This document shows positions 15,486 to 40,166 of a stretch of DNA of 51,518 bases, in pieces. The translations under genes and the position numbers were made by a program. A model generated the notes under the pieces. The model had not been told where the DNA came from. It searched no databases and was given only the letters and a program-made list of their open reading frames with translations. The DNA lies in IMG/VR virus record IMGVR_UViG_3300017960_000020, positions 1 to 51,518 of that record; one strand, 5' to 3'. The DNA comes from a virus. How positions within the stretch are numbered: position 1 is the first letter of the stretch; the number at the start of each line of letters is the position of its first letter.

Positions 15486-15749
15486 ATGTCTGAGAATCCC
15501 CGTCCCTCGCACCAAGGCTTCGCGCTCGTCCCCAAGTGGCGCACGACCATGGTGTACTCGACGGAGGTTCCCGGAGGGGAGGCAAGGGTGATCTTCGCGG
15601 AGTGCGACAAGACCGGGTCCTCCCTGGAGGGCTATCTGGAGCGCATCGGCGACGGCAAGTGGGATGGACAGCAGACGTTCATCGCCCCCGATGGTGCCAG
15701 GTTCAGCCACGAAGCTGACCTGATCGAGCACCTGCGTCGCCAACGATGA
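15486..15749 (+). CDS. Hypothetical small protein between terminase and portal
   Basis: An 87-residue protein with alternating strands (TTMVYSTEVPGGEARVIFAE) and a helical end (HEADLIEHLRRQR). The ATG lies 13 bp after the terminase stop, and the stop overlaps the portal ATG. The position is typical of small head accessory genes; no family recognised. Confidence 0.6.
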   Translation: MSENPRPSHQGFALVPKWRTTMVYSTEVPGGEARVIFAECDKTGSSLEGYLERIGDGKWDGQQTFIAPDGARFSHEADLIEHLRRQR

Positions 15750-18535
15750 CCAGAGCCCTCAGCCGAACCAGCCAAGCGCGCACCCCGCGCCTCGCGGTCC
15801 CCACCCAGCGGGCCACCGCCCACGAGATCAAGAGCCTGCAGCAGTGGGCCAAGAGCAAGCCGTCGAAGCGGTACGCGATGGGCGCTGAGGGGGCGCTGGT
15901 CTCCCCCCTGCGGCAGATCCCGTGGATCTACGCGGCGATCCGCAAGCTGTGGAGTGCAGTGGGTGTGGCCCCGCTGAAGTTCCGGGTCGATCAGGACCCC
16001 GAGAGCAACGATCTAGCGCCGACGGATCCGCTGGTGCGCCTGTTCGAGCGGCCGTCGCCGACGATGAGCCGCAAGGAGTACCTGACCCAGGTGGTCCAGT
16101 TCACCCAGACCACGGGCGAGGCGTTCCACGTCTTCCACGACGCGGAGGGTAGGGTGATTCGGCCGCTGGACGACGGCCTGGACGCCCCGATCCCGATGCC
16201 GGCGCAGATCACGGTCCGCCAGGGCGGCGGGCGCCTGGGGCTGCAGTACGAGCGCGGGCTGCCGAAGTCCTGGCGCTTCTCGGACGAGGAGGGCTCCCAC
16301 GAGATCCCCTTCGCCGCGGGCCTGAACGTCCGAATGCCGTCCGAGGAGGACAGGTACCGGGGCCTGGCGCCGCTGGCGCCCGTGCTGGGCATCGGGGAGG
16401 CGATGTTCCTGGCCGAGCTGATGAACCGGAAGCAGGCGAGTCGGGGCGGGCTGTCGGGTCTGGCGATGGTGAACAAGACGCGGACCCGGGACGACGTCTA
16501 CGAGACCATGCAGGAGATGGCCGACCGGGTGCAGGACTCGCTCGCGGACGGCCGGATCCCGTACATCGAGGGCGAGATCGACTTCAAGAAGCTCGTCGAC
16601 TCGCACCGGGAGATGGCGTATTCGCGGCTGTCCGAGCTCGGGCGCAAGGATATCTCGGCCGTGTTCGGGGTGCCGGACGCCGTGCTGGGCATGGGGTCGA
16701 GCAACTACGCGACCTTCGCCGGCGAGATGCGGGGCATGTGGGAGACCACGGTCCGTGATCTGCAGTGCATGATCGAGGACGCGATCAACTGGCACTTGAT
16801 CCCGCGGCTGCGAGTCGGGAGCCGAGAGGTGCAGGCCTGGGCGTACTTCGACAACTCGAAGGTGGCGTGGCTCCAGCCGGACTACGAGGAGCTCGGGCGG
16901 CAGGCCCGGGGTTTGATGGCGGTCGGCGTCCCGCGGCGCGCGGCGCTCGATCGGGTGGGCCTAGTCGAGGTCGAGGACACGGAGTTCGACGAGATCCCGA
17001 TGTTGGAGGGAGGCCTGGAGTCCTTCGCCGAGGCGGTCCGCGGCTCTGGCGACGAGTCGGCGCCAGGGCTCTCGCCTGAGCAAGCCGCAGAGTTGCGCGC
17101 GATCCTGCTGGACGTGGGCAAGGGCGCGCTGTCGCCCGAGGCTGCCGTGCTGTTGATCGCGTCCGCGCTGCCGATCGAGGAGGCGGACGCCCGCAAGATG
17201 GTCGAGGCCATCGAGATCAAGGAGCCCCAGCCGGTGCCGGCGGCGCTACAGAACCAGCCGCCGCCCGTGTCGCCTGGCCCGCCCGAGGAGCCCGACCAGG
17301 AGCGCGCCGCGCGCCCGTTCGAGATCCGCCTGTCCCCCCGGCTAGAGACCCGGACCCGCATGGTCTCCCAGACCCCCCAAGCCGAGCGGGACGCGATCTA
17401 CGAGGAGTTGGAGGCTCGACGCGAGGAGGGCGACTCCAAGATCAGCCGCGCGGTCCGCCAAGTCTGGCGCGAGGCCAAAGAACGCCAGCTCGAGCACCTG
17501 CGCGCCTTCGCTGCCGGTGGTGGGTCGCGCCTCCCCCGCCGATCGCTCTACGGCGAGGACCGCGGGATCCGCCTGCTGGGGTCCGAGTTGCGCGACCTCG
17601 CCAAGGCGATCCGCGCCGACCGGGAGCAGGGCGAGCAGCTCGTGCCCATCCTCGACTGCTGCGGCCAGGAGATCGCCGCCTGGTGGGCGCCGGTCGAGGA
17701 ACGGCAGCGCAACTGGTTCGCCGACCACGGCAACCTGGCCAGCCTGCCCGGTGGCCTGCGCCGCTTGGCGGACGTGGCCGTGTTGCGCGAGGCGGACCCG
17801 AACCTGTCTGAAGCCGAGATCGAGGCCCTGTTGGTCCTGGGGAGCCCGGAGTGGGCCAAGGAGATCGCGGAGGCCTTGGAGCCGGTGTTCCTCGACGTGC
17901 TGGGCGACGCGGTCCGCCGGGCGAACTCGGACCTCTCGATCCCGTACTTGGCCGAGCCGGACGCCGTCTTGCTGCGTCTGGCGCGGGAGAACCGGATCAA
18001 GCTGGCCCGCGACATCCAGGGCACCCTGGCGACTCGCGTGCGCTCGGCGATGGTTCGGACCCTGAGTGAGGGGCCGGCGACCGTGACGGGGATCCGGGAG
18101 CGCGTGCGCGAGACGCTCGCCGAGCTCGAGGAGACCGTCGAGGACCAGTTCGGCAAGGCCAACGACCGGGCGCTGACCATCGCGCGGACCGAGACGGCCT
18201 ACCTGGACAACGCCGCAGAGTTCCGCACCAGCGAGCTAGGCCGCGACGCCGGCGAGTTCCTGACGCACGAGTGGCTCGCAGCCTCCCGCAACTCGCCTCC
18301 CACCGGCCGCACCCGCCCGACCCACGTTGAGGTGGATCGGACAGTCCAGTTCATCGGCCAGGCGTTCCGCGTCGGCAAACACCTCCTGCTCCACCCGGGC
18401 GACAAGCAGGTCGACGCCCCCGAGGAGACCATCAACTGCCGCTGTGCGCTGCGCCGCCGCCGGCTCCAGACCGACCTCGACGAGGGTCTGATCGACCAAG
18501 CCACCTTCGACCGCCTCCAGAACGGGGCCGCCTGA
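15746..18535 (+). CDS. Portal protein fused to a MuF-like head morphogenesis domain
   Basis: A 929-residue fusion. Residues about 30-430 form an HK97/SPP1-type portal, with IPWIYAAIRKLWSAVG near the start and DISAVFGVPDAVLG near 310. After a variable linker, the C-terminal about 170 residues are a MuF/SPP1 gp7-type domain, with TIARTETAYLDNAAEF, then HEWLAASRNSPPTGRTRPTH, and a closing ETINCRCALR. The portal forms the DNA channel at one capsid vertex; MuF proteins enter the head in low copy. Fusions of these two genes are known in other phages. Four-bp overlap with the upstream gene. Confidence 0.88.
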   Translation: MTRALSRTSQARTPRLAVPTQRATAHEIKSLQQWAKSKPSKRYAMGAEGALVSPLRQIPWIYAAIRKLWSAVGVAPLKFRVDQDPESNDLAPTDPLVRLFERPSPTMSRKEYLTQVVQFTQTTGEAFHVFHDAEGRVIRPLDDGLDAPIPMPAQITVRQGGGRLGLQYERGLPKSWRFSDEEGSHEIPFAAGLNVRMPSEEDRYRGLAPLAPVLGIGEAMFLAELMNRKQASRGGLSGLAMVNKTRTRDDVYETMQEMADRVQDSLADGRIPYIEGEIDFKKLVDSHREMAYSRLSELGRKDISAVFGVPDAVLGMGSSNYATFAGEMRGMWETTVRDLQCMIEDAINWHLIPRLRVGSREVQAWAYFDNSKVAWLQPDYEELGRQARGLMAVGVPRRAALDRVGLVEVEDTEFDEIPMLEGGLESFAEAVRGSGDESAPGLSPEQAAELRAILLDVGKGALSPEAAVLLIASALPIEEADARKMVEAIEIKEPQPVPAALQNQPPPVSPGPPEEPDQERAARPFEIRLSPRLETRTRMVSQTPQAERDAIYEELEARREEGDSKISRAVRQVWREAKERQLEHLRAFAAGGGSRLPRRSLYGEDRGIRLLGSELRDLAKAIRADREQGEQLVPILDCCGQEIAAWWAPVEERQRNWFADHGNLASLPGGLRRLADVAVLREADPNLSEAEIEALLVLGSPEWAKEIAEALEPVFLDVLGDAVRRANSDLSIPYLAEPDAVLLRLARENRIKLARDIQGTLATRVRSAMVRTLSEGPATVTGIRERVRETLAELEETVEDQFGKANDRALTIARTETAYLDNAAEFRTSELGRDAGEFLTHEWLAASRNSPPTGRTRPTHVEVDRTVQFIGQAFRVGKHLLLHPGDKQVDAPEETINCRCALRRRRLQTDLDEGLIDQATFDRLQNGAA

Positions 18536-18539
18536 TCCC

Positions 18540-19907
18540 ATGACTGACCTCGACCTCAACCTCCTCGACGCTGTCCGCCTGGGCGTGGCCAGCCCTCACG
18601 AGATGCGCCAGGCCGCGGACGTTGTCCGCACCTTCAAGTCCCAGGGCAACATGCTCCTGCGGGGCTCGGCAAGCCCGAAGCCGGTCATCGAGCGCGCCGC
18701 GATCAACCGCGAGGCCCGCTCGATCACCTACGCCGGGTCCGTCGAGATCGTCGACCGGATGGGCGACCTGATCCTCCAGCGCGGCTGGGAGACCGACAAC
18801 TGGAGCGAGCACGGCGGAGTCTTCCTGTGGATCCACGACCACGGCGACATCATTGGCCAGGGCATCCAGACCGGCCTGGGTCAGGCGACCTACCGCGGCG
18901 CCCAGTACCCCGCGCAGCTCTTCGAGATCGGCTACCTGTCCGAGGACCTGAACCCCGCCTCCGAGGTCGTCTGGCGCCTCGCGTCGGGCCAGGGCACCCC
19001 CACCGGCCGCCCGCTACTCAAGGGCGTCTCCGTGGGCTTCCGCGGGCTGGACATGCGGGCCTTCGACTCCGACGAGCGCGAGAAGTACGGTCTGCCGGAC
19101 GACCACTGGGGGCTCGTGTTCGAGCGCCAGGACCTGCTCGAGCTGTCCCAGGCGCCGGTCCCGGCGAACCAGGGCGCGTTCACCCTCAGCGACACAAAGG
19201 CGGACCGCAAGTTCGCCGCGCAGGTGGACGAGGCGTTGGGGCACATGGTCAGCGAAGGCCAGATCAGCGCGAGCCTCGAGCGCCTCTTCCGCGAGCGCTA
19301 CCAGGTGAGCCCCGGCGAGGCCGCGAAGAAGGCCGCCGAGCGCGCCAAGTCGTTCACCGATCTAGGGTCGTGGGAGTGGCCGAAGGCTGCGGCGCAAGCC
19401 GTTACCGAGGAGCGCGGGGCTCAGATTCCCGAAAAGGCTACCGACGACACGGAAAAGTTCGGCGAAGCGGACGACGTTACGCCCGCAACAGAGAGGGCGG
19501 AGAGTGTTGGGCAGCGCGGGAAAGGTGGTGAGATCGAAACGCTTGACGGGCTCTTGGACGTGGTCCGCGAGTTGACGCCCGATGGGGTCTCTTCGCTTCG
19601 CCGTCTTAGCGTAACGCTCGAACGCGCGCGGATGATGGTGGATCGCGCGCTGGATGACTTCGAGGCCGCGCAACGCGCTTGCAGCGGTGGATCGAATAGC
19701 GACAGCATGGTTGGCGAACGTGCTACCAACACGGACGTGGCCGAGCTGTTGCAACGAGTCGAGCGACTCGAGCAGCGAGGTCAAACCGAACTGGAAGCCA
19801 CGCCTGCAGTCGAGAGAGGGGCGGAGCAGGCGATCGACTTCACCGATCTACTCGACCGCTACCGACCCAATGCCGCCGGAAACCAACACGCCGGAGCAGC
19901 ACGATGA
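18540..19907 (+). CDS. HK97-type prohead maturation protease (S78)
   Basis: A 455-residue protein with an N-terminal S78 serine protease domain. Likely catalytic residues are H99 in WIHDHGD and S164 in KGVSVGFRG. It would cleave capsid delta domains during maturation. The C-terminal half (about 230-455) is charged and partly coiled coil, and may act as a scaffold, since no separate scaffold gene is seen. From about 19400 codon use shifts toward A/T-ending codons, unlike the flanking genes. The end overlaps the capsid gene by 38 bp. Confidence 0.85.
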   Translation: MTDLDLNLLDAVRLGVASPHEMRQAADVVRTFKSQGNMLLRGSASPKPVIERAAINREARSITYAGSVEIVDRMGDLILQRGWETDNWSEHGGVFLWIHDHGDIIGQGIQTGLGQATYRGAQYPAQLFEIGYLSEDLNPASEVVWRLASGQGTPTGRPLLKGVSVGFRGLDMRAFDSDEREKYGLPDDHWGLVFERQDLLELSQAPVPANQGAFTLSDTKADRKFAAQVDEALGHMVSEGQISASLERLFRERYQVSPGEAAKKAAERAKSFTDLGSWEWPKAAAQAVTEERGAQIPEKATDDTEKFGEADDVTPATERAESVGQRGKGGEIETLDGLLDVVRELTPDGVSSLRRLSVTLERARMMVDRALDDFEAAQRACSGGSNSDSMVGERATNTDVAELLQRVERLEQRGQTELEATPAVERGAEQAIDFTDLLDRYRPNAAGNQHAGAAR

Positions 19908-21234
19908 GCTGCTGAAGGGCATCGACGGGCTGCTCTCCAAGCGAGACGCAACCCTCGTGTCCGATCTCGACACCAAGCTGGCCCAGGCCAAGACGGACGC
20001 TCGCCAAGAGGTCGCGCGCCTGGCCGAAGAGCACAAGGCGAGCCTGACCGACCTGGAGAAGATGCTCCAGGCGTCCTCGCTGGACCTGACCGACGAGCAG
20101 GCCGCCAAGGTCAAGGAGATCGTCGCGGAGCGCATCCAGGCGATCCGCACCCAGGCCAAGGAGTCCTCGGGCTCCGACAAGGAGGAGACCGCCGACAAGG
20201 CGCTCGACTTCAACTTCGCCCGAGCCGCTGAAGGCTCGATGGTCGACTGGAAGGGCACCGCCAAGCAACTGCCCGAGTACAAGGCGACCATGGAGGCCAC
20301 CGAGAAGGCCGTCCAAGCTGATGTCGACGTGCAGGGCGGCTTCGCGGTCCCGGCGGCCTACATGGCCAACCGCCTGATCCCGGCCCTGGAGGCGCGCACC
20401 GTTTCGCTTCAGCTGGGCGCCACGGTGATCGACTCCCTGGACGGCGCTCCGGGCGAGATCCCGCGCATCACCAACGTCCCCGACGCGGAGTGGGTCGGCG
20501 AGGTCCAGGAGTCCAGCGACACGGACGTCAAGTTCGGGATGCTGCGCCTGAACCCGCACGGCCTGGTGAGCTACATCCCGGTCTCGCGGCGCTTTCTGCG
20601 TATGTCGGCCCTGTCCAGCGGCCAGAGCCTGATCGAGCAGCACATGGCGCGCGCGCTGTCGCGCAAGGCCGACCTGGCCGCCCTGAAGGGTGACGGCGCC
20701 AGCGGTCAGCCCCGCGGCATGTACAACACCACCGGCATCGGCGAGGTGGACTGGAACTCGGCGGACTTCGCCGGCGCCGACCAGAACGTCAGCGACCTGG
20801 CTGACCAGATGATCGGCAAGCTCGAGGACAACGACGCCTACGGCGGCCGCCTGGGCTGGGCCATGTCTCCGGCGGTGCGTCGCAAGCTGCGAACCACCAA
20901 GGACGCTGACGGCCGTCCGCTGTTCTTCTCCACGATGGGGATGCGCGACGCCGCGGGCGGCAACCGCACCGTCGGCGCCATCGCCGGGGAGTTCTACGAC
21001 TTCCCCTACGCCACCACCACGCAGCTGGCTGGCGGCGACCCGGGCGACCTGATCCTCGCCGACTGGGAGACCCTGATCTTCGGCTACTTCGAGCAGCTCG
21101 TCTTCGACGTCTCGGAACACGTCCTCTTCAAGAAGCGCCAGCTCGCCCTGCGCGCCTACATGGAGGTGGACATGGGTGTCCAGCACCCCGAGGCCATCGC
21201 CATCGCCAACAACCTCGACGCCACGGGGGTCTGA
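19870..21234 (+). CDS. Major capsid protein (HK97 fold)
   Basis: A 454-residue capsid protein. Residues about 1-115 are a charged coiled-coil delta domain (scaffolding). The mature part then begins around VQADVDVQGGFAVP and continues through PVSRRFLRMSA, KGDGASGQPRGMYN and a C-terminal ALRAYMEVDMGVQHPEA, all typical of the HK97 family. I chose the ATG at 19870, inside the protease gene end, because the longer frame upstream mirrors the protease. The cleavage site cannot be placed exactly. Confidence 0.93.
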   Translation: MPPETNTPEQHDELLKGIDGLLSKRDATLVSDLDTKLAQAKTDARQEVARLAEEHKASLTDLEKMLQASSLDLTDEQAAKVKEIVAERIQAIRTQAKESSGSDKEETADKALDFNFARAAEGSMVDWKGTAKQLPEYKATMEATEKAVQADVDVQGGFAVPAAYMANRLIPALEARTVSLQLGATVIDSLDGAPGEIPRITNVPDAEWVGEVQESSDTDVKFGMLRLNPHGLVSYIPVSRRFLRMSALSSGQSLIEQHMARALSRKADLAALKGDGASGQPRGMYNTTGIGEVDWNSADFAGADQNVSDLADQMIGKLEDNDAYGGRLGWAMSPAVRRKLRTTKDADGRPLFFSTMGMRDAAGGNRTVGAIAGEFYDFPYATTTQLAGGDPGDLILADWETLIFGYFEQLVFDVSEHVLFKKRQLALRAYMEVDMGVQHPEAIAIANNLDATGV

Positions 21235-22658: not shown

Positions 22659-23270
22659 GTGGCGTCTCTGATCACCTGGGACTTCTACCGGACGTGGGTC
22701 GGCACTGCCGATCTGCCGTCCGGTGCGTCCGACGTGCAGGAGACGTTCGACCTCCTGAACCCCCAGGTGGGCTCGATGATCGAGAACTACCTGGGCCGCC
22801 GGGTGATCCAGGGCACCGTCACCGAGCAGAAGCGGACCCAGCCGGACCGCGAGATCTACCACCTCCGCAACTTCCCGGTGCAGTCGGTCACGTCCGTCGA
22901 GTACGACCCCGAGGCGCGCTTCGAGTCGGGCTCCGATTACACCGTGGCGACCGACGCCTACGCGGTGGATCTGACCACCGGGCGGCTCTGGCTGGACATC
23001 ATGGTCGACCGGACGCCGTTCGGCCTGCGGGTGGTCTACGAGGGCGGGATGGTCGCGGACGTGGCGACCCTCGAGACCCCGTCTAACGAGTACCACCCGA
23101 TCGCGGTGGCCGCGGCCCAGCAGATCAACCACCTGTACGACCGCCGGGACTACCAGGGCGCGGAGAGCGTCAGCATGGGCCGAGCGAACGCCAGCTACGG
23201 CGGGGAGGCTCAGCTGCTCGAGGTGGTCCAGCAGACCCTGGCGCCCTTCAGGGCAGCGAGGGCGGGGTGA
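22659..23270 (+). CDS. Head-tail connector protein (gp6-like)
   Basis: A 203-residue protein read from a GTG. It has the usual adaptor pattern: an N-terminal helix pair (SMIENYLGRRV), a central beta region with RNFPVQSVTSVEYD, and a C-terminal helix starting HPIAVAAAQQINHLYDRR. Such proteins form a ring under the portal and seal the DNA channel. Position directly before the gp10-like gene agrees. The stop overlaps the next GTG. Confidence 0.75.
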   Translation: MASLITWDFYRTWVGTADLPSGASDVQETFDLLNPQVGSMIENYLGRRVIQGTVTEQKRTQPDREIYHLRNFPVQSVTSVEYDPEARFESGSDYTVATDAYAVDLTTGRLWLDIMVDRTPFGLRVVYEGGMVADVATLETPSNEYHPIAVAAAQQINHLYDRRDYQGAESVSMGRANASYGGEAQLLEVVQQTLAPFRAARAG

Positions 23271-23929
23271 CGCAGCGGTTCGAGTTCGTCGTCCGGGATG
23301 GTCCGCGGACCGCGCAGGAGATCTTTGCGCGGGGCCGGGCGCTGCGCGGCAGTGTGGAGCGTGCGTTCCGGGCGATCGGCGCCGAGTTCGTGGGACGTGC
23401 ACAGGGCCGCATCGACGGCGAGTGGAATCCGGCTCTCAACAAGCGCCGGACGACCCTGGTCAACCGGTCGGGAGCCCTGCGCCGGCGAGGACTTCGGGTG
23501 CAGACCGTCGGAGGCCAGCGCCTGCGGGACGTGGCGCTCCGCGTCTACATCACGCTCCCCTACGGCGTCACCCAGGAGTTCGGCGGCACCATCCGGCCGA
23601 AGCGGGCCAAGTACCTGACGATCCCGACGCCGGCCGCGCTGGACCCCTCCGGCATCCTCAAGAAGACCGCGCGCGAGTACCGCGCTGAAGGCGGGACATT
23701 CGTGTTTAACACGCCCAAGCGCCGCGAGAAGGGGCTGGGAGGGCTGATCGCGCGTCGGGTCGGCAAGAAGGGTAAGTTGGAGGTGCTGTTCGTCCTGGCG
23801 AAGCAGGTCAACGTCCCGGCCCGCTGGGGTCTGCGGAAAGATTGGCGCTCGTCGGACATGCTTAAGGTCCGCGGCCAGGAGATGACCTCGGCCATCCGAC
23901 GCGTGCTCAACGCCCAGGGGGCCGCCTGA
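23267..23929 (+). CDS. HK97 gp10-like neck/tail completion protein
   Basis: A 220-residue basic protein. The block YGVTQEFGGTIRPKRAKYLT (about residues 98-117) is typical of the HK97 gp10 and phage virion morphogenesis families, which act at the head-tail joint. The C-terminus ends in a helix (EMTSAIRRVLNAQ). It begins at a GTG overlapping the connector stop, and its own stop shares one base with the next ATG. Confidence 0.7.
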   Translation: MTQRFEFVVRDGPRTAQEIFARGRALRGSVERAFRAIGAEFVGRAQGRIDGEWNPALNKRRTTLVNRSGALRRRGLRVQTVGGQRLRDVALRVYITLPYGVTQEFGGTIRPKRAKYLTIPTPAALDPSGILKKTAREYRAEGGTFVFNTPKRREKGLGGLIARRVGKKGKLEVLFVLAKQVNVPARWGLRKDWRSSDMLKVRGQEMTSAIRRVLNAQGAA

Positions 23930-24282
23930 TGGTCGCCTGGATCGAGACTGCCGGCACCCTGCGAGTCGGCTCCATGGGCTACCCCGTTCGCCGCGTGCGG
24001 ACGCTGGACGGCATCTCCGAGCCCGCCACCTCGGGGCTCGCGGTCGGCAAAACCACCGAGCAGATCCCGCGCGAGTCCTGGGAGGTCGAGTTGGAGCTTC
24101 GCTCCGGCGCTGAACTGTCCGTGCTCCGCGGTGACGTACAGACCGCCCGAGGCGGCGCGCTCCCCCTGTTCTGGACGGACGACGAGGGCCAGATCCGCGA
24201 GGTCTACCTGACCGCGCCGGTGGAGTCTCTGATCCGCCGAGGGCGCATCGTGTCGCGCCTGGCGCTTGAGGAGGTCGTCTAG
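23929..24282 (+). CDS. Hypothetical neck/tail protein
   Basis: A 117-residue beta-rich protein with repeated short strands (WEVELELRSGAELSVLRG, REVYLTAPVESLIRRG). It lies between the gp10-like protein and the hydrolase/tail-terminator fusion, so a neck or tail-completion role is likely. I do not recognise the family. Confidence 0.55.
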   Translation: MVAWIETAGTLRVGSMGYPVRRVRTLDGISEPATSGLAVGKTTEQIPRESWEVELELRSGAELSVLRGDVQTARGGALPLFWTDDEGQIREVYLTAPVESLIRRGRIVSRLALEEVV

Positions 24283-24284
24283 CC

Positions 24285-25772
24285 ATGGTCCTCATCTCCC
24301 CGACCCGCCAGGGTTTCTATGACCCCGGAGGCGACACCAGCGAGCGGTCGGCCTACTACGCCTTCTATCGGACCGACATCACCTTCGACGCCCCCGGGCG
24401 CCCGTGGGTGCTGAACCTGGAGGGTGGTGCCTGGGCGCCGGACTCCGGGCTGCCGTTCGACACCTTCGACACGGACGGCCGGCCGATCCTGGCGAAGCTC
24501 TACTACCGGGGCTTCGGGATCCTCTCGATCGGGCGCACGGTGACGGACGTGGCCTTGGACGGCAACGGGGCCTTCGATCCGACAACTTGGACGACGCCCC
24601 CCACTGGAGGCGTGCGGCTGGACTCGACGCCGGCGAACCTGGGCAAGCGGAGCTCGGAGAAGGACGTGGTGAACTTCATCCAGTTCCTGCGCTTCAACGG
24701 CATCGGCGACCTGGACCGCAGCGACGCGGCCAACGGGATCTGGGGCCGCTCGATGGGCTCCCAGGACGGCAGCTTCGTGGGGATCGGACCGGACCGCCGG
24801 ACGGGCTCGGGGTCGGACCGCTTCAACACGAACACCCGCCTGGGCTGGATGATCAACCAGTCCACGATCGCCACCTGGAAGGGCTACGTCGACGCCCAGA
24901 ACACCGGCGGCCACCTGACCGACGGCGCGGGAGGGAATGCCAACACCGTCGGCGAAGCCAAGGCCGCCCCCGGTGGCGCCGAGACGATCCGGCAGGCCAG
25001 CTCGCTGTGGTACGCCTTCGCCAACGAGGGCACCCGGCTACGGAACGCCACGATGCCGGTCTGGATCCAGTCCGGCGCGGAGGCGCTCCAGTACGCGGGC
25101 CCCTACGACTTCGACAGCTACGACGGAGTCGTCTCCAACACGCACCCCCCCGAGAACGTCGAGGCGCTGCGAGAGGCGTTCCTGGCGCTGGACACGGAGT
25201 TCGGCTCGACCTTCCAGGCTGAGAACTCCCGCTTCGTCCGCGACTACAAGGGCACCGACGAGGCCCTCGGCGAGGAGCAGTACCAGTGGGTCTTGCAGGT
25301 CTCCGGGGTCGGCGAGCTTCCGACGCGCGAGGAGGCGACCATCCAGGCTCTGGTCTCGCAGCTCGAGGGGATCACGACCGACGGCGGCTTCCGCACCGAG
25401 GTCGCTGAGGTCCGGCGGGTCTCCGAGCTCGCGACCGAGATCCGCACGCCTGGCATCGCCGTCATCGAGGTCGGCTCGAGCTACCAGGACGGCGCCGAGA
25501 ACAACGCCAACCGGATCACCATGCAGGTGGTTCTGGAGCTAACTGTCGGCAAGTACGCCGACCTGGAGAAGTCCGTCTCCAACTTCGTGGGTGACGTGCG
25601 GAAGGCGATCTACGCCGACCGGACGCTGGGAGGGAAGGCCCTGGACGTGAGGTTCGGCAGCTCTGATCGCTGGCTGAACTCTGAGCGCGGCCCGAGGGGC
25701 GGCGCGAATCTGACCCTGTCCATCGAGATCTTCGATTCGGCGGACGACCCCTACCTCGAGCCCTACTGCTGA
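24285..25772 (+). CDS. Alpha/beta-hydrolase-like domain fused to a tail terminator protein
   Basis: A 495-residue fusion. Residues about 1-315 look like an esterase: a strand and oxyanion-type LEGGAW (45-50), GFGILSIGRTV, and a nucleophile elbow G-R-S-M-G with S156. Later come MPVWIQSGAEAL and candidate Asp/His residues (for example in the stretch around 285). From about 335 to the end it resembles tail terminator proteins: TIQALVSQLEGITTDGGFRT, then GKYADLEKSVSNFVGDVRKA and LTLSIEIFDSADDP. The terminator ring caps the tail tube at the head joint. No in-frame ATG or GTG separates the parts. The esterase call rests on motif pattern and could be tested by structure prediction. Confidence 0.65.
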   Translation: MVLISPTRQGFYDPGGDTSERSAYYAFYRTDITFDAPGRPWVLNLEGGAWAPDSGLPFDTFDTDGRPILAKLYYRGFGILSIGRTVTDVALDGNGAFDPTTWTTPPTGGVRLDSTPANLGKRSSEKDVVNFIQFLRFNGIGDLDRSDAANGIWGRSMGSQDGSFVGIGPDRRTGSGSDRFNTNTRLGWMINQSTIATWKGYVDAQNTGGHLTDGAGGNANTVGEAKAAPGGAETIRQASSLWYAFANEGTRLRNATMPVWIQSGAEALQYAGPYDFDSYDGVVSNTHPPENVEALREAFLALDTEFGSTFQAENSRFVRDYKGTDEALGEEQYQWVLQVSGVGELPTREEATIQALVSQLEGITTDGGFRTEVAEVRRVSELATEIRTPGIAVIEVGSSYQDGAENNANRITMQVVLELTVGKYADLEKSVSNFVGDVRKAIYADRTLGGKALDVRFGSSDRWLNSERGPRGGANLTLSIEIFDSADDPYLEPYC

Positions 25773-25776
25773 ACCC

Positions 25777-27213
25777 ATGGCACTGCTCTCCAGAAACCGA
25801 CAACTACTGTTCGCGCCGGAGCCGGTCTTCGGCACGGCGGCCTCGCTGATCTCGGGGAGCTCCCTGGCGGCTGGGGCGAAAGCGCTTCGCATCCTCAACC
25901 CCGAGGTCCAGTTCGACTTCGAGAAGATCGAGGACGAGGCGGCCTCCCCCAGCGCGGGTCGCCTGCCGTACCGAGCCGGCGTCCGCCAGGGCACCGTCAC
26001 CTTCGGGATCGAGCTGTCGGGGCCCAAGTCCGGCACGCTGACCGAGGCACCCGCCTGGGCCGAGCTACTCGAGGCCTGCGGGATGCGCGCGGTGGCCGCC
26101 AAGAAGGTGACCATCGACGCCTTCGACACGGGCACCGTGTTCAAGCAGGGGCGGACCTTCGCGGCTGACGGCTCCAACGGAGTCGGTCGGGTCTTGAAGA
26201 CGCTCTACAGCGCCCAGGGAGACGACACGCTGATCTACGAGGATCTGGGCACCGACGTCGACTCCGGCGACACCACGCTCACTTTGAGCGATCCGGGGGG
26301 CGAGTTCGACGGCAACATTGTCGACATCACGAGTCAGACCCCGGCGAACGCGGGGTTCGCGTTCGTGCCCACCACTCTGCCGGGCTACACGCTGACCCTC
26401 AGCGTCGGCGTCTCCCAGGACTTCAACGAGGGTGACATCGTCACCGGCGGCACGTCGGGGGCTGTGGGCCGTGTGGCCCAGACCAGCCTGTCGGGCGCGA
26501 CCAAGCTGGTGGTGACCTTCCTGGGCGCCGTCCAGGCCTTCTCCGCGGGCGAGACGATCACTCGCGTCGGCGGAGGCACCGCCACGATGGGCACGCAGAC
26601 GGCGACCTACGGCCAGTCGCTGACGATCGGCCTGGTCGAGAGCGAGCGCTTCAAGGTGCTCCGGGGCTGCCGCGGGACGTGCCAGTTCGATCTGACCAAC
26701 GCCCGTGCGCCGCGAATCAACTTCACCTTCCGCGGGGTCTACGACTCGGTCACCGACCAAGGCTCGCTCGCGGTCAGCCCCGACGGCGGCGCAACCCCGC
26801 CGCGCTTCGTGGGCGCCACGATCTGGGCGGGAACCGACGGCGCGTTCTGCCCGCAATTCCAGCAGCTCACCGTCGACCTCAACGCCAACCCCGCGATGAT
26901 CGCGGATCCGAAGTCGAGCGAGGGCATCCTCGGCGCCTACGCGGCCCGACGCGACATCAGCGGCCAGATCAACCCGCTCGCGCGCCTGGAGCAGAGCTTC
27001 GCGACCTACGCCAAGGCCGCGGCCGCGACCGACTTCCCGCTGCAAGTCGCCTGGGGCACCGAGGGCTCGGGCAACGCCTTCGCCTTCCAAGCGGACCGGA
27101 CGACCTTCCGCAGCGCTAACGCAGGCGACCGAGACGGCCTGATGACCGACGAGTTGCCGCTCGACTTCTTCGAGTACGCAGGAAACGACGAGTTCGTATT
27201 CCTGACCCTGTGA
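25777..27213 (+). CDS. Major tail (tube) protein
   Basis: A 478-residue protein, larger than usual tube proteins. The start (LLFAPEPVFGTAASLISGSS) and end (DFFEYAGNDEFVFLTL) fit the tail tube family, with NFTFRGVYDSVTDQG near 310. Residues about 145-270 carry an inserted Gly/Thr-rich module of the type seen in phage surface proteins (EGDIVTGGTSGAVGRV, AGETITRVGGGTATM). It lies right after the terminator and before the chaperone genes, as expected. A hairpin follows. Confidence 0.8.
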   Translation: MALLSRNRQLLFAPEPVFGTAASLISGSSLAAGAKALRILNPEVQFDFEKIEDEAASPSAGRLPYRAGVRQGTVTFGIELSGPKSGTLTEAPAWAELLEACGMRAVAAKKVTIDAFDTGTVFKQGRTFAADGSNGVGRVLKTLYSAQGDDTLIYEDLGTDVDSGDTTLTLSDPGGEFDGNIVDITSQTPANAGFAFVPTTLPGYTLTLSVGVSQDFNEGDIVTGGTSGAVGRVAQTSLSGATKLVVTFLGAVQAFSAGETITRVGGGTATMGTQTATYGQSLTIGLVESERFKVLRGCRGTCQFDLTNARAPRINFTFRGVYDSVTDQGSLAVSPDGGATPPRFVGATIWAGTDGAFCPQFQQLTVDLNANPAMIADPKSSEGILGAYAARRDISGQINPLARLEQSFATYAKAAAATDFPLQVAWGTEGSGNAFAFQADRTTFRSANAGDRDGLMTDELPLDFFEYAGNDEFVFLTL

Positions 27214-34969: not shown

Positions 34970-35379
34970 ACCACGCGGACCTGATCGGCGTGAAGTACAC
35001 CGCCGGCGGCATGAGCCCCGAGGAGGGCTTCGACTGCCGCACCCTGGTCGCCTGGTGGCTGCGGGAGCGCCTCGGAGTGGACCTCCCACCGCATCCGTTC
35101 TGGGACCAGCTGGACCTGGAGACGGCCGACGGCTCGTTCGACGGGTTCACCGACCTGCGCGAGGTGCTCGAGGAAGTCCCCTGCGGCGACCTGGAGCGGC
35201 CGCAGCTGGGGTGGATCCTGGAGCTGCCCCGGATCGGCCGCGGGAAGCTGCGCCACCTGGCCGTGGCTGTCGAGGAGCGCCCGGGGCGCTACCTGTCCAC
35301 GCGCCTGGGGTCCGGGGTCTTTGTGGCCGCGGCCCACAAGTTCGTCGCCCCGCTGCGGGTCTGGAGGGTTAAGCCGTGA
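34966..35379 (+). CDS. NlpC/P60-type tail peptidase (lambda K-like)
   Basis: A 137-residue cysteine peptidase-like protein. The catalytic cysteine is C24 in EEGFDCRTLVAWW and the likely histidine is H97 in LRHLAVAV. Such tail tip proteins cut peptidoglycan cross-links during DNA entry. The start overlaps the L-like gene (ATGA), and the stop overlaps the J-like GTG. Full length for the stand-alone domain, with no Mov34/JAB part as found in lambda gpK. Confidence 0.75.
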   Translation: MNHADLIGVKYTAGGMSPEEGFDCRTLVAWWLRERLGVDLPPHPFWDQLDLETADGSFDGFTDLREVLEEVPCGDLERPQLGWILELPRIGRGKLRHLAVAVEERPGRYLSTRLGSGVFVAAAHKFVAPLRVWRVKP

Positions 35380-38300
35380 CCGAGCTGTGCCAGATCCACG
35401 TCCACCGGCTGACGGACTGGACCGATCCCGTGGGCTCGCGCGAGAGCCAGGACGTCGAGTTCTATGAGCGGTGCACGGCGCGCGGGGTCCTGGAAGACCT
35501 CGAGGTCGATCCCGAGGCCGCGACGGTCTGGGTGAACTCGGCCCTGTTGCCGGCCGGCGAGGACCGGAGGTTGGCGCCTGGGGATCACCTGACGTTCGCG
35601 GAACTGCCGGCCGAACCGTTTAGTGGCACACTTGTAGCGCAGGCCCTTACCGTCTCGAACGTCGCGGGCGCCATCTTCGCAGGCGCCGCGATCTTCGGCG
35701 TGAGCCGTGTGATCTCTGGCATCTACGGCGCCACGGAAGATCCGGTCGCCCAAGAGGACTTCTCCAGCCAGACCTACAGCTGGGGCGGCATCCGCACGGC
35801 GTACCAAGCCGCGGGCCTCAAACTCCCCCTGTGCATCGGAGACGTGCGCACCGGCGGCGTGGTGATCCAGCGGTCCGTCGAGGTCATCGAGACCGAGGGG
35901 AAGCCCAAGTCGATCCTATACCTCCTGATCGCGCTCTCCGGCGGCCCGGTCCGTTCGGTGGCGGGCTTCACCGAGGACCGAGACGACCTCCAAGCCGAAG
36001 ACCTCACCGGGGTCTACATCAACGGCAACCCCGCATCCAACTACGAGGGGGTCACGGGGTTCGTGCGCCTCGGCACGATCGAGCAAGAGCCGGTCCCCGG
36101 GTTCGACCGGATCGAGGTGCTCGAGCAGGTGGATCTGCCCATCACGAACGAGGACCCCGCGGTCACGGACTGGAGCGAGGCCGCCACGTACGACCTCCTC
36201 TCGGAGGCCCAAGCCGCGCGCCTGACGCTGGAGTTCACCCAGGGGCTGTTCGAGGTGTCCCAAAGCACTGGCATCCAGAAGTCGAACAGCGTGCTCTTCG
36301 ACATCCGGTACCGGACCCTGGACGCGCTGGGCAACACCACCTCGGACTGGCTGGAGGACCCGCGCAACCCGCTGATCGTCACCGCGGCCACCCAGCAGGC
36401 GTTCCAGCACCAGATCCCGGTCACCTTCGCCACGCCCGGCGTCTACACGCCTCCGACCACGGGGCAGTCGGTCGTCCTGGGCGGCACGGACACCCACCTG
36501 CGAGTCGCAACGCAGTCCATCAGCCTGACCGCGCCGTTCCAGCAGTGGGGCCCCAACACGGCGCCCGAGCAACTGACCTGCGCGGGGTGGCTGTTCATCC
36601 AGTCCGATCAAACCACCGCCGGCAACCTCTTCGTCGGCTGGAGCCTGGGCGACCCGGACAACACGCTGGCCTCTCTGGCGGGCTTCCATGTCCGCTCGGT
36701 CGAGTCCGGCGCCGATGCGCGGATCCTCGCCGAGTTCGGCAACACGGGCTCCCGGCAGATCTTGGGGGGTAACCTCCAAGAAGCCGGCATCGTTCCGAGC
36801 TCCAAGTGGGCGCACTTCGCGTTCACCTACCAGCGCGACGCCCAAGCCGGCGGTATCAACCGAGCCCGGCTGTACGTCAACGGCGCCCTCGTCGATGAGT
36901 TGCTCACGGTCACCGAGGTTCAGTTCCCCTCGGGCCTCACGCCGCGATTCCGGGTCGGCACGGTGGATGGCAAGCTCACCGAGGCCAACGAGCAGAGCCG
37001 GTGGGACGACCTGGCGCTCTGGGAGCGGGAGTTGACTCCTGCTGAGATCTCCCAGTTGTGGAGCGGCGGGCTCGCTCAGGCGGTGTCCAGTGGTTCGCCC
37101 GGGCTCGCCGCGCTCTGGCGCTTCAACGGCGACCTCACGGACGAGACTGGCAACGGGAATACGCTCGAGAACGCGGGCCCCGGAGCCGCGCCCAGCTACT
37201 CGTCGGGCGTCACGGCGCTCGGGCAGGACCCGACGCCCCAAGACGCCTCCCGCTACCGCATCGAGATCCAGCGCCGCTCGACCCCATCGGATGACCCGCT
37301 GATCCGCGACGAGGTCCGCTGGGAGAACGTCGTGGGCATCACCTACGACGAGTTGGCCTACCCCGAAACCGCGCTGCTGGGCCTGCACATCGACGCCAGC
37401 GAGCAGCTCTCCGGGGGTCAGCCCACGGTCCTGACGGACGTCGAGGGCCGCCCTGGGCTGCGCTACGACACGGGCTCTGGCAGCTGGATCGAGGACTTCT
37501 CCGCCCGCCGAAACCCCGCCTGGGCGCTCGCGCGCTACCTGACGGATCGGCGCTTCGCCCTGGGCCGCTTCTTCGACTCGTCCGACCTCAACGGCCCCTC
37601 TTTCGCCGAGTGGGCGGACTACTGCGACGAGCTTCTCCGAGACCAGCGGGGGCGCGCGGACGTGGCCAGCGTGGCGGCGATCACGTACGAGTCCGCCGAG
37701 ACCTTGGAGATCCGGTTCAACGCCCAACCGCCAAGCCACTGGGTCACGGGGACCCGGCTTCGGATCGTTGAGTTGTCCGGCGTCACCGGCGCGACGGTCT
37801 CCCAGGTTGTGCTGCTCTCGAACCTGACCTCCAACCTCGCCGCGGCCGCGCTGATCATCCCGGTCTACCAGGACAGTTCGACCGCCGAGTGGGTGGCGCT
37901 GTTCTCCTGGACGGACACCCTGGGCGCCAACTGGTCCGCGGTGAACTCCGACGGCCCCTACGACGCCGAGGCGGACGGGGCCACCGTGAAGCTCGAGGGC
38001 GTCGAGGAGCGGCACCAGATCGACATGGTCCTGGACGGCCGCGGCGTGAAAGGCTGGGACGGCGCACTCCAGATCGGAAAGGTCGGGCGCGGGACGCCGG
38101 TTCGGATCGGCTCTAAGGTCCGCGCCAAGGTCTCCCGGCCCCGGAGCCCGAGCCAGCTGTTCAACGCGGACTCGATCGTCCAGGGCTCGTTCAAGCTGCG
38201 CCGGGTCCCCACGGCCCAGACCTTCAACCGGGCGGTCGGCGAGATCCTCGACCGGACCAAGAACTGGGAGCGCAACCCGATCCCGGTCGACCATCCCGAG

Positions 38301-40166
38301 CTGGACAACGACCCCACCGGGGACGTGCGGGTCCGGGCCACCACGATCGAGCTGCGGGGGGTCACCCGGCCCTCGGCGGCCCGTCGGGAGCTGACGTTCC
38401 TGCTCAACGCCTGGAAGCTCCTGCGGCTGTTCTGCGAGTTCGAGGCCTTCCACGACGCGGTCACCGTCGAGTCCGGCGACGTGGTCCTGGTCGAGCACCC
38501 GATGCCGCAGTTCGGCTTCGGCGGCATCGTCCAGGCGGACGCGAGCGGCACCGGCGGGACCACCATCGACAAGCCGATCACGCTGGCCTCGGGCGAGACC
38601 TACGAGATCGTCGTCAAGGACCAGCAGAGCAACCAGCTGGCCTTCGCCGCGGTCACGGCGCCGGCCGGGGACTACACCGCCGGCACCGCGATCGGGCACG
38701 GGGCTCTGACGGTCCAGGGCTCCACGGACACCTACCAGCCGCGCGCGGGCGACCTGTGGGCCATTGGGCGCCTGGAGAAGGCGGTCCGCCAGTTCGAGGT
38801 GCTGGAGATCAGCGTGGACCCCCAGACCTTCAACCGTCGGATCCAGTGCTTGGAGTACGACGCGGGGGTCTACGCCGAGGGCACGTTCCCGGACGCGCCC
38901 GAGGACCCGGGCACCGAGCTGTCCGCGCCCCCGCTCGACGGCGCCCAGGCCCCGGAGATCCAGGCTCTGACGGTCACGGACTCGACCTCGGTCGGCCCCG
39001 GCGGCACGGTCGTCCCCAGCGTGTCGGTCTCCTGGAAGTACCCAAGCGGGTCGATCCTGGACTCCGGCCGGGTCGAGATCTGGGCGCGGGGAATCGAAGA
39101 CCGGCAGAACGCGACTCCCGTGCTGCTCCAGGTGGCCCCCACCGAGGCCAGCTCGACCATCGTCGCGAGCCCGTACCTGGAGCCCGGGGAGGCCTACGAG
39201 TTCATCGTGCGCCCGGTCAGTTCCACCGGCGAGCGCTCTCCCCTGCGCCTGGCGCGGCGCGCGCGGATCACCTTCGGCGGACAGGTCCCCTCCCCTCCGG
39301 CCCCCGGCTCCCTGGCGGTCCGCCCCCAGGCGGACGAGGTGGTCTACGCGGTCGGCGGGGACCGCTCGAGCTCGAACGTCGAGATCCGGCGCGGCCGCGG
39401 GTGGTTGATGGCGGACATCGTCGCGGTGGTCTCGGGCGGAACCGAGGAGAGCCAGCCCACCCGGAACTTCGTCCTGGCCCCCACGTCGGCGGGTGGCAAG
39501 GCCGAGCCCACGCTGCGCGCGCGCTACCTATACGGCCGCGGCGCGGTCTCCCAGGAGGTCTCGGTCGCCCCGGCGGTCGGCGCTGACCTGGGCTTCGACA
39601 CGGCCCTGGTGTCCGTCAGCGTCGAGGACCAGGGCTCCGACTTCCTCACCGGCGCCGCCGCGGTCTCCGGCCTCGAGGTCGGCTCCGACGACGGGGAGCC
39701 CATCCTGCGCTTCCCTGACGCCACCAGCGGGGCCGCGACCGGCACCTACACCTCCCAGGTGTTCGACGCCGGTGAAGTCCGCACGATGCACGTCTCGGCC
39801 TCCCTGGACGCCCTTCAGCTTCACCCGCTGGCCTTTGGGCGCTGGCCGGTGCTGCTGGGCTCGCGGCGCGGAGCGAACTGGGACGCCTATGAGGGCCCCT
39901 TGGACCCGGCGGACCCCTACTACGGCGTCATCACCCGGCAGACCGAGATCCGGTTCTCGGATACCGCCGACCCGACGGGGGCCACCTGGCGGCCTTACCG
40001 GCCGGGCCAGTACCGCCTGCGGAGCTTCCAGCTGCGATACACCTTCACCCGCCCCGCGGGCTTCAACGGTCTGGACTTCAACTTCAAGGCCGACCGCCTG
40101 GCGGTCCAGGCCAACCCGGTCACCCCGGGGGAGCTGCCTGACGTGATCGACGGGGGCACCTTCTGA
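35376..40166 (+). CDS. Tail tip/host specificity protein, J-like, with inserted LamG domain
   Basis: A 1596-residue protein and the largest here. The first about 350 residues contain the J-family start, with a hydrophobic segment (SNVAGAIFAGAAIFGVSRVI). Residues about 385-610 are an inserted LamG/concanavalin-like lectin module (KWAHFAFTYQRD, RLYVNGALVDEL, RWDDLALWERELTPAEISQL). The J core then resumes (NPAWALARYLTDRRFALGRF). A fibronectin type III-like region lies near 1190-1310. It is the central fibre that contacts the host receptor; the LamG insertion suggests glycan binding. Confidence 0.8.
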   Translation: MTELCQIHVHRLTDWTDPVGSRESQDVEFYERCTARGVLEDLEVDPEAATVWVNSALLPAGEDRRLAPGDHLTFAELPAEPFSGTLVAQALTVSNVAGAIFAGAAIFGVSRVISGIYGATEDPVAQEDFSSQTYSWGGIRTAYQAAGLKLPLCIGDVRTGGVVIQRSVEVIETEGKPKSILYLLIALSGGPVRSVAGFTEDRDDLQAEDLTGVYINGNPASNYEGVTGFVRLGTIEQEPVPGFDRIEVLEQVDLPITNEDPAVTDWSEAATYDLLSEAQAARLTLEFTQGLFEVSQSTGIQKSNSVLFDIRYRTLDALGNTTSDWLEDPRNPLIVTAATQQAFQHQIPVTFATPGVYTPPTTGQSVVLGGTDTHLRVATQSISLTAPFQQWGPNTAPEQLTCAGWLFIQSDQTTAGNLFVGWSLGDPDNTLASLAGFHVRSVESGADARILAEFGNTGSRQILGGNLQEAGIVPSSKWAHFAFTYQRDAQAGGINRARLYVNGALVDELLTVTEVQFPSGLTPRFRVGTVDGKLTEANEQSRWDDLALWERELTPAEISQLWSGGLAQAVSSGSPGLAALWRFNGDLTDETGNGNTLENAGPGAAPSYSSGVTALGQDPTPQDASRYRIEIQRRSTPSDDPLIRDEVRWENVVGITYDELAYPETALLGLHIDASEQLSGGQPTVLTDVEGRPGLRYDTGSGSWIEDFSARRNPAWALARYLTDRRFALGRFFDSSDLNGPSFAEWADYCDELLRDQRGRADVASVAAITYESAETLEIRFNAQPPSHWVTGTRLRIVELSGVTGATVSQVVLLSNLTSNLAAAALIIPVYQDSSTAEWVALFSWTDTLGANWSAVNSDGPYDAEADGATVKLEGVEERHQIDMVLDGRGVKGWDGALQIGKVGRGTPVRIGSKVRAKVSRPRSPSQLFNADSIVQGSFKLRRVPTAQTFNRAVGEILDRTKNWERNPIPVDHPELDNDPTGDVRVRATTIELRGVTRPSAARRELTFLLNAWKLLRLFCEFEAFHDAVTVESGDVVLVEHPMPQFGFGGIVQADASGTGGTTIDKPITLASGETYEIVVKDQQSNQLAFAAVTAPAGDYTAGTAIGHGALTVQGSTDTYQPRAGDLWAIGRLEKAVRQFEVLEISVDPQTFNRRIQCLEYDAGVYAEGTFPDAPEDPGTELSAPPLDGAQAPEIQALTVTDSTSVGPGGTVVPSVSVSWKYPSGSILDSGRVEIWARGIEDRQNATPVLLQVAPTEASSTIVASPYLEPGEAYEFIVRPVSSTGERSPLRLARRARITFGGQVPSPPAPGSLAVRPQADEVVYAVGGDRSSSNVEIRRGRGWLMADIVAVVSGGTEESQPTRNFVLAPTSAGGKAEPTLRARYLYGRGAVSQEVSVAPAVGADLGFDTALVSVSVEDQGSDFLTGAAAVSGLEVGSDDGEPILRFPDATSGAATGTYTSQVFDAGEVRTMHVSASLDALQLHPLAFGRWPVLLGSRRGANWDAYEGPLDPADPYYGVITRQTEIRFSDTADPTGATWRPYRPGQYRLRSFQLRYTFTRPAGFNGLDFNFKADRLAVQANPVTPGELPDVIDGGTF

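Follow-up and report, generated by a model that had tools for sequence, protein, structure and literature searches.

An alpha/beta-hydrolase-like domain fused to a predicted tail terminator in an uncultured bacterial virus

The locus and its genes

The stretch of DNA analysed here (the window) comprises the 51,518 nucleotides of IMG/VR record IMGVR_UViG_3300017960_000020. It codes for a 495-residue protein in which an alpha/beta-hydrolase-like domain precedes a tail terminator. The features discussed below, all on the + strand, are the following.

23267..23929 (+), Neck1 / tail completion protein, upstream neighbour (phrog_26, 5e-4; 32% identical to the homologue in L016)
23929..24282 (+), 117-aa neck gene between neck1 and the fused gene, with a positional counterpart in L026-L029
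24285..25772 (+), fused gene, 495 aa, one continuous ORF: alpha/beta-hydrolase-like domain and tail terminator
24393..25202 (+), hydrolase-like domain, residues 37-306, BD-FAE-type alpha/beta hydrolase by hhalign
24423..24434 (+), GGAW (residues 47-50), equivalent of the oxyanion-hole motif, HGGGW in homologues; here E46 replaces H
24744..24758 (+), GRSMG (residues 154-158), nucleophile elbow with S156, aligned to the GQSAG/GRSAG serine of BD-FAE-type esterases
25137..25151 (+), NTHPP (residues 285-289) with H287, equivalent of the subfamily HHP motif in profile alignments
25203..25322 (+), linker region, residues about 307-346, of which 320-341 have low confidence in the model
25293..25295 (+), TTG codon in frame at residue 337, shortly ahead of the terminator and a weak candidate for an internal start, with an SD-like AGGAG
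25323..25748 (+), tail terminator domain, residues about 347-488 (PHROG and PDB profile matches, model and Foldseek)
25777..27213 (+), major tail protein, downstream neighbour (25% identity, E 4e-21, to a gene of L029)

A preliminary description of this DNA had reported that one uninterrupted frame joins the two parts, and this is indeed the case: the ORF is free of internal stops over its 495 codons and overlaps neither neighbour. It starts with ATG, downstream of a strong Shine-Dalgarno sequence (AGGAGGT, -11.7 kcal/mol). Between residues 257 and 413 the frame contains neither ATG nor GTG, again as first described, the one weak candidate being the TTG at residue 337, where AGGAG (-6.1 kcal/mol) lies at a poor spacing of about 15 nt. 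GGAW and GRSMG, with S156, are found exactly where they had been placed. Across the junction, third-position GC remains between 0.92 and 0.98 (windows starting at residues 46-361), a steadiness which argues that there is no frame break. Two more IMG/VR contigs, from other metagenomes and 99.5-99.97% identical to the window, code for the same 495 residues at 100%; since three contigs agree across metagenomes, the gene is not an assembly error. It is a real and unusual domain fusion in an uncultured bacterial virus.

The order of genes (head-tail adaptor, neck1, a gene of 112-117 aa, terminator, major tail protein) is that of L028/L029, so that the fused gene occupies the place of a terminator between the neck proteins and the major tail protein. 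In L029, the counterpart of the latter directly follows the stand-alone terminator. The 117-aa gene has no family match and possibly codes for the stopper; a gene of 112-118 aa ending in LEE separates neck1 from the terminator in the window as well as in L026-L029, and is absent from L016. A relationship of the 117-aa gene with the gene at the same position in Cy-LDV1 was considered and rejected, similarity being undetectable.

Other structural genes of the window also display uncommon arrangements of domains. The portal gene (15746-18535, 929 aa) carries a fused MuF-type head morphogenesis domain, with matches to phrog_2662 over residues 20-903 and to phrog_2468 over 698-902. Two overlapping frames (18540-19907 and 19654-21234) match opposite parts of the phrog_617 major head protein family (15-237 and 204-623, respectively); to judge from these matches, a protease/capsid unit, a single chain in that family, is split between two frames here. 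The tail tip protein (35376-40166, 1596 aa) has a Laminin_G_3 lectin-like domain (4e-10) together with fibronectin type III.

The terminator domain

Tail terminators usually, although this does not define them, stand alone and have about 130-200 residues, a range well exceeded by the present chain of 495. Scanned on their own, residues 343 onward match phrog_5185 (5.6e-5) and phrog_4204 (tail terminator, 1.6e-3), the latter being matched by four of nine aligned terminator members, at best with 3e-9. This part shares 31% identity with the terminator of the tail tube in cyanophage Cy-LDV1, the start of which, MNLPMSERALRAI, aligns with GELPTREEATIQAL of the fused protein, and a profile that includes eight stand-alone relatives retrieves the T5 terminator p142 from the PDB (E 2-4e-4). 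An AF2 model computed from nine sequences (pLDDT 79, core above 90, pTM 0.74) has the terminator fold (a beta sheet with two flanking helices). In a Foldseek comparison, as had been proposed for this part, the model retrieved T5 p142 (E 7e-9) and also the terminators of P74-26, lambda (gpU), R4C and Chi. The early assignment of the C-terminal part is thus borne out by PHROG matches, PDB profile and gene position, and sequence and model together support residues about 347-488 as a tail terminator. Because residues 320-341 were modelled at low confidence (they are predicted to be disordered), a linker was placed ahead of this domain.

The hydrolase-like domain

The N-terminal part has no threshold match in Pfam, PHROGs, NCBIfam, PDB sequences, phages or plasmids; direct search of genome contigs and viral contigs returned near-identical copies only, and the Pfam gathering score of PF20434 was reached neither by hmmscan nor by direct search of the genome. 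AF2 applied to the whole protein as a single sequence gave this part a pLDDT of 34 and no usable model. Shuffling the domain produces GxSxG in 31% of cases, and GGxW with GxSxG 80-130 residues further on in 0.4%; motifs by themselves being weak support, the assignment to hydrolases has to be founded on profiles.

A search of 681 genomes of Planctomycetota and Verrucomicrobiota produced seven weak matches, one of which (L145) is a PF20434 (BD-FAE) esterase. It aligns at 35% over 78 residues, with IWGRSMGS of the window protein over LWGQSAGS and the nucleophile serine in register. When a profile of 30 BD-FAE-type esterases of Planctomycetota was compared with the single window sequence by hhalign, the score was 50.8 (probability 90.8, 211 columns); none of 60 shuffles exceeded 22.9, the best of 45 other proteins of the window reached 21.8, and the reversed sequence scored 16.1. 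A second profile was tested because the first contained the homologue that had led to the family; made of 18 other members, it scored 37.4, where 100 shuffles reached at most 26.2 and the best other window protein 28.1. Both alignments are collinear over 211-223 columns with all motifs in register, and the Myxococcota homologues have WGRSxGSQ, PD and TRL in common with the window protein. A profile of the HSL/Aes esterase family gave no match to the N-terminal part. Since the scores far exceed those of the controls, homology with hydrolases is well supported, even though it lies outside the Pfam threshold. Residues 37 to 306 or so therefore very probably adopt a highly divergent alpha/beta hydrolase fold, with S156 as the equivalent of the nucleophile, as had been suspected from the motifs.

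Two other approaches were abandoned. An esterase motif (HDDLA.P...DP), used as a DNA pattern, returned 89 stretches in genome contigs, and none of the 80 that were read was a relevant hydrolase. A three-sequence profile, run broadly against Myxococcota, mostly returned general BD-FAE esterases, and no donor could be named.

Catalytic residues

BD-FAE, as characterised, is both an acetyl xylan esterase and a feruloyl esterase and acts on xylan (PMC8165983), with a triad made of Ser128, Asp237 and His269 (PMC8165983). The window protein retains the serine, as S156, and does not have the canonical Ser-Asp-His triad. H210 and H287 are the only histidines of its N-terminal domain; neither the canonical position behind strand 8 nor any other position after residue 287 is a histidine. 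In EGGAW, the glycines and the tryptophan of HGG(G/A)W are kept while the histidine is replaced by E46. The nearest group of esterases, from Planctomycetota and Myxococcota, is marked by two motifs, STR behind the nucleophile helix and a conserved HHP. H287 lines up with one histidine of HHP, the first or the second according to the alignment. In this STR...HHP subfamily (several of L151-L191) no residue is conserved at the usual positions of the catalytic Asp and His. The absence of these residues does not in itself imply inactivity, because the whole subfamily is without them: the group may have dispensed with the canonical histidine and rely on HHP in its stead, or else the lack of it may reflect inactivity. 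On sequence grounds, we see the chances that the N-terminal domain is enzymatically active as evenly balanced. Nothing in the sequence points to a particular ester substrate.

Relatives and origin of the fusion

Among phages that reach this region, the nearest by terminase (L016, 41%) has a terminator which starts directly after neck1. Stand-alone terminators are found in L023, L024, L025, L026/L027, L028, L029 and L030 (143-165 aa) and in cyanophages Cy-LDV1 and Cr-LKS3 (165-169 aa), and those of five further genomic matches (L196-L200) look stand-alone as well. Among viral proteins, the 50 best structural matches have lengths of 135-240 aa. None of them all bears the hydrolase; the relatives with a stand-alone terminator number about fifteen and include the nearest phages. 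Longer frames around the L197/L198 terminators were considered as fusions and rejected, as they look like read-through of a non-coding frame. It had been suggested that related phages be inspected for the same fusion or for two separate genes: the two-gene arrangement is not seen, the hydrolase being wholly missing from the relatives rather than present as a separate neighbour. Because relatives have a stand-alone terminator without hydrolase, the fusion is derived, with the hydrolase part gained, and because no hydrolase gene precedes their terminators, loss of a stop codon was not its cause. Among the relatives compared, the fusion is so far unique to the virus of the window.

In Cy-LDV1 (L019:2587-4998) and Cr-LKS3 (L020:2872-6004), tail-fibre-like genes, possibly coding for neck fibres, lie directly upstream of the stand-alone terminator, in the slot that the hydrolase domain occupies in the window. 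The fibre-like protein of Cy-LDV1 was examined as a relative of the hydrolase and rejected as unrelated.

A ring of hydrolase-like domains at the neck?

Terminators form a hexameric ring between the stopper and the tail tube (PMC10721106, PMC11784142). We propose that a siphovirus tail terminator gained a divergent BD-FAE-type alpha/beta hydrolase by N-terminal gene fusion. If the fused protein behaves as other terminators do, its terminator part would form the usual hexameric ring atop the tail tube, so that about six hydrolase domains per virion would surround the neck, each attached by a flexible linker of roughly 20-40 residues. They would project outwards because the interior of the ring is the DNA channel. 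Their targets there would be ester groups, acetyl or the like, on the polysaccharide or capsule of the host surface, which they would bind and probably also cleave, and this contact would help the particle to cross the polysaccharide layer or to remain in it. The T5 terminator with an N-terminal His tag was monomeric on overexpression (PMC11784142), and as that tag disturbed assembly, tolerance of a large addition at the N-terminus is not to be taken for granted. In our estimate the proposal as a whole, a terminator ring displaying six esterase-like domains that bind or act on ester-decorated host glycans, has an even chance of being right. Its strongest version, with six active BD-FAE-type esterases, a catalytic histidine in the HHP loop and the first enzyme on a siphovirus terminator, is more doubtful, a tentative possibility.

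The main rival of the proposal, held to be less likely than it, is a pseudo-enzyme, in which the hydrolase fold would have been kept and activity lost, leaving a glycan-binding or structural decoration of the neck comparable to the lactococcal modules discussed below. The missing canonical histidine, the replacement of the HGG histidine by Glu and the retention of only one of the two HHP histidines are what one would expect of it, and carbohydrate-binding modules at the neck are already known (PMC6669499). However, the nucleophile serine, the glycines of the oxyanion motif and one histidine of the subfamily have been retained, and the STR...HHP subfamily as a whole lacks conserved canonical Asp and His.

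It might also be that the two parts do not stay together, the terminator being freed by a start at TTG 337 or by proteolysis of the linker, with the hydrolase acting elsewhere or being lost. The position of this codon just before the terminator, the AGGAG upstream of it and the predicted disorder of the linker are compatible with such a separation. We nevertheless hold it to be unlikely, as AGGAG lies well beyond the usual spacing, ATG and GTG are absent and a separate gene would be an easier route to a separate start; hydrolase and terminator probably remain fused in the virion. Even less likely is that residues 1-330 are no hydrolase at all, and that chance motifs have been read into an unrelated neck or fibre-like domain. 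The lack of threshold matches in the databases and among phages and plasmids, and of a match to the Aes-family profile, would agree with this, but not the alignments of 211-223 columns, motifs in register, which stand far above shuffled, reversed and unrelated controls. As for an assembly chimera, or a local one-off mutation joining two genes, the fusion is indeed displayed by a single viral lineage, yet an ORF that is 100% identical in three contigs from different metagenomes makes this explanation negligible.

Comparison with known systems

Enzymes that assist phage adsorption are usually looked for in fibres or at the tip of the tail. If the terminator ring does include an esterase, the head-tail joint would bear a collar, enzymatic or glycan-binding, of fixed copy number, and a ring critical for assembly would have to tolerate a 35-kDa N-terminal partner. 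The finding also draws attention to a poorly characterised esterase subfamily, STR...HHP, devoid of the usual conserved Asp and His.

Residues 347-488 resemble T5 p142 and lambda gpU in fold, in profile match and in position before the major tail protein; p142, however, is a stand-alone protein of 161 aa, whereas the window protein has a 340-residue N-terminal part ahead of this domain. With BD-FAE (PF20434) and the STR...HHP subfamily, the window domain shares the order and spacing of oxyanion motif, nucleophile serine, TR(L) and HP. It differs from BD-FAE in falling below the Pfam cut-off, in having Glu for the His of HGG and in being without the canonical Asp and His. Moreover, BD-FAE is a free-standing enzyme, while the domain described here is part of a virion gene.

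Terminators of myophages and of PVC16 can bear additional domains (PMC11784142); those described touch the sheath or are second copies of the terminator fold, and not one is presented as an enzyme (PMC11784142); in the literature searched, of limited coverage, no description of an enzyme domain on a terminator was found. Activities directed at glycans are, by contrast, already documented at the neck. The neck appendages of phi29, made of gp12, degrade teichoic acid (PMC9863714). By this description gp12, an enzyme acting on a wall glycan at the neck, can be likened to the window domain, but phi29 is a podovirus and gp12 a separate trimeric spike bound to the collar, with no fusion to a terminator. 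In lactococcal phages, the neck passage structure (NPS) carries carbohydrate-binding modules (PMC6669499, PMC10747895), which places glycan-related domains at the neck of a siphovirus, as proposed for the virus of the window. Yet the NPS is a fibre protein in its own right, which has an N-terminal collar domain as well as binding modules, whereas the window domain sits on the terminator chain, and the fused protein has no Pfam or PHROG match to an NPS-type fibre protein. The preliminary description had spoken of a new position for a glycan-modifying activity. With phi29 gp12 and the lactococcal NPS already known at the neck, a wholly new position is too strong a claim; what appears to be new is the use of the terminator as the scaffold of a neck enzyme or binder of glycans.
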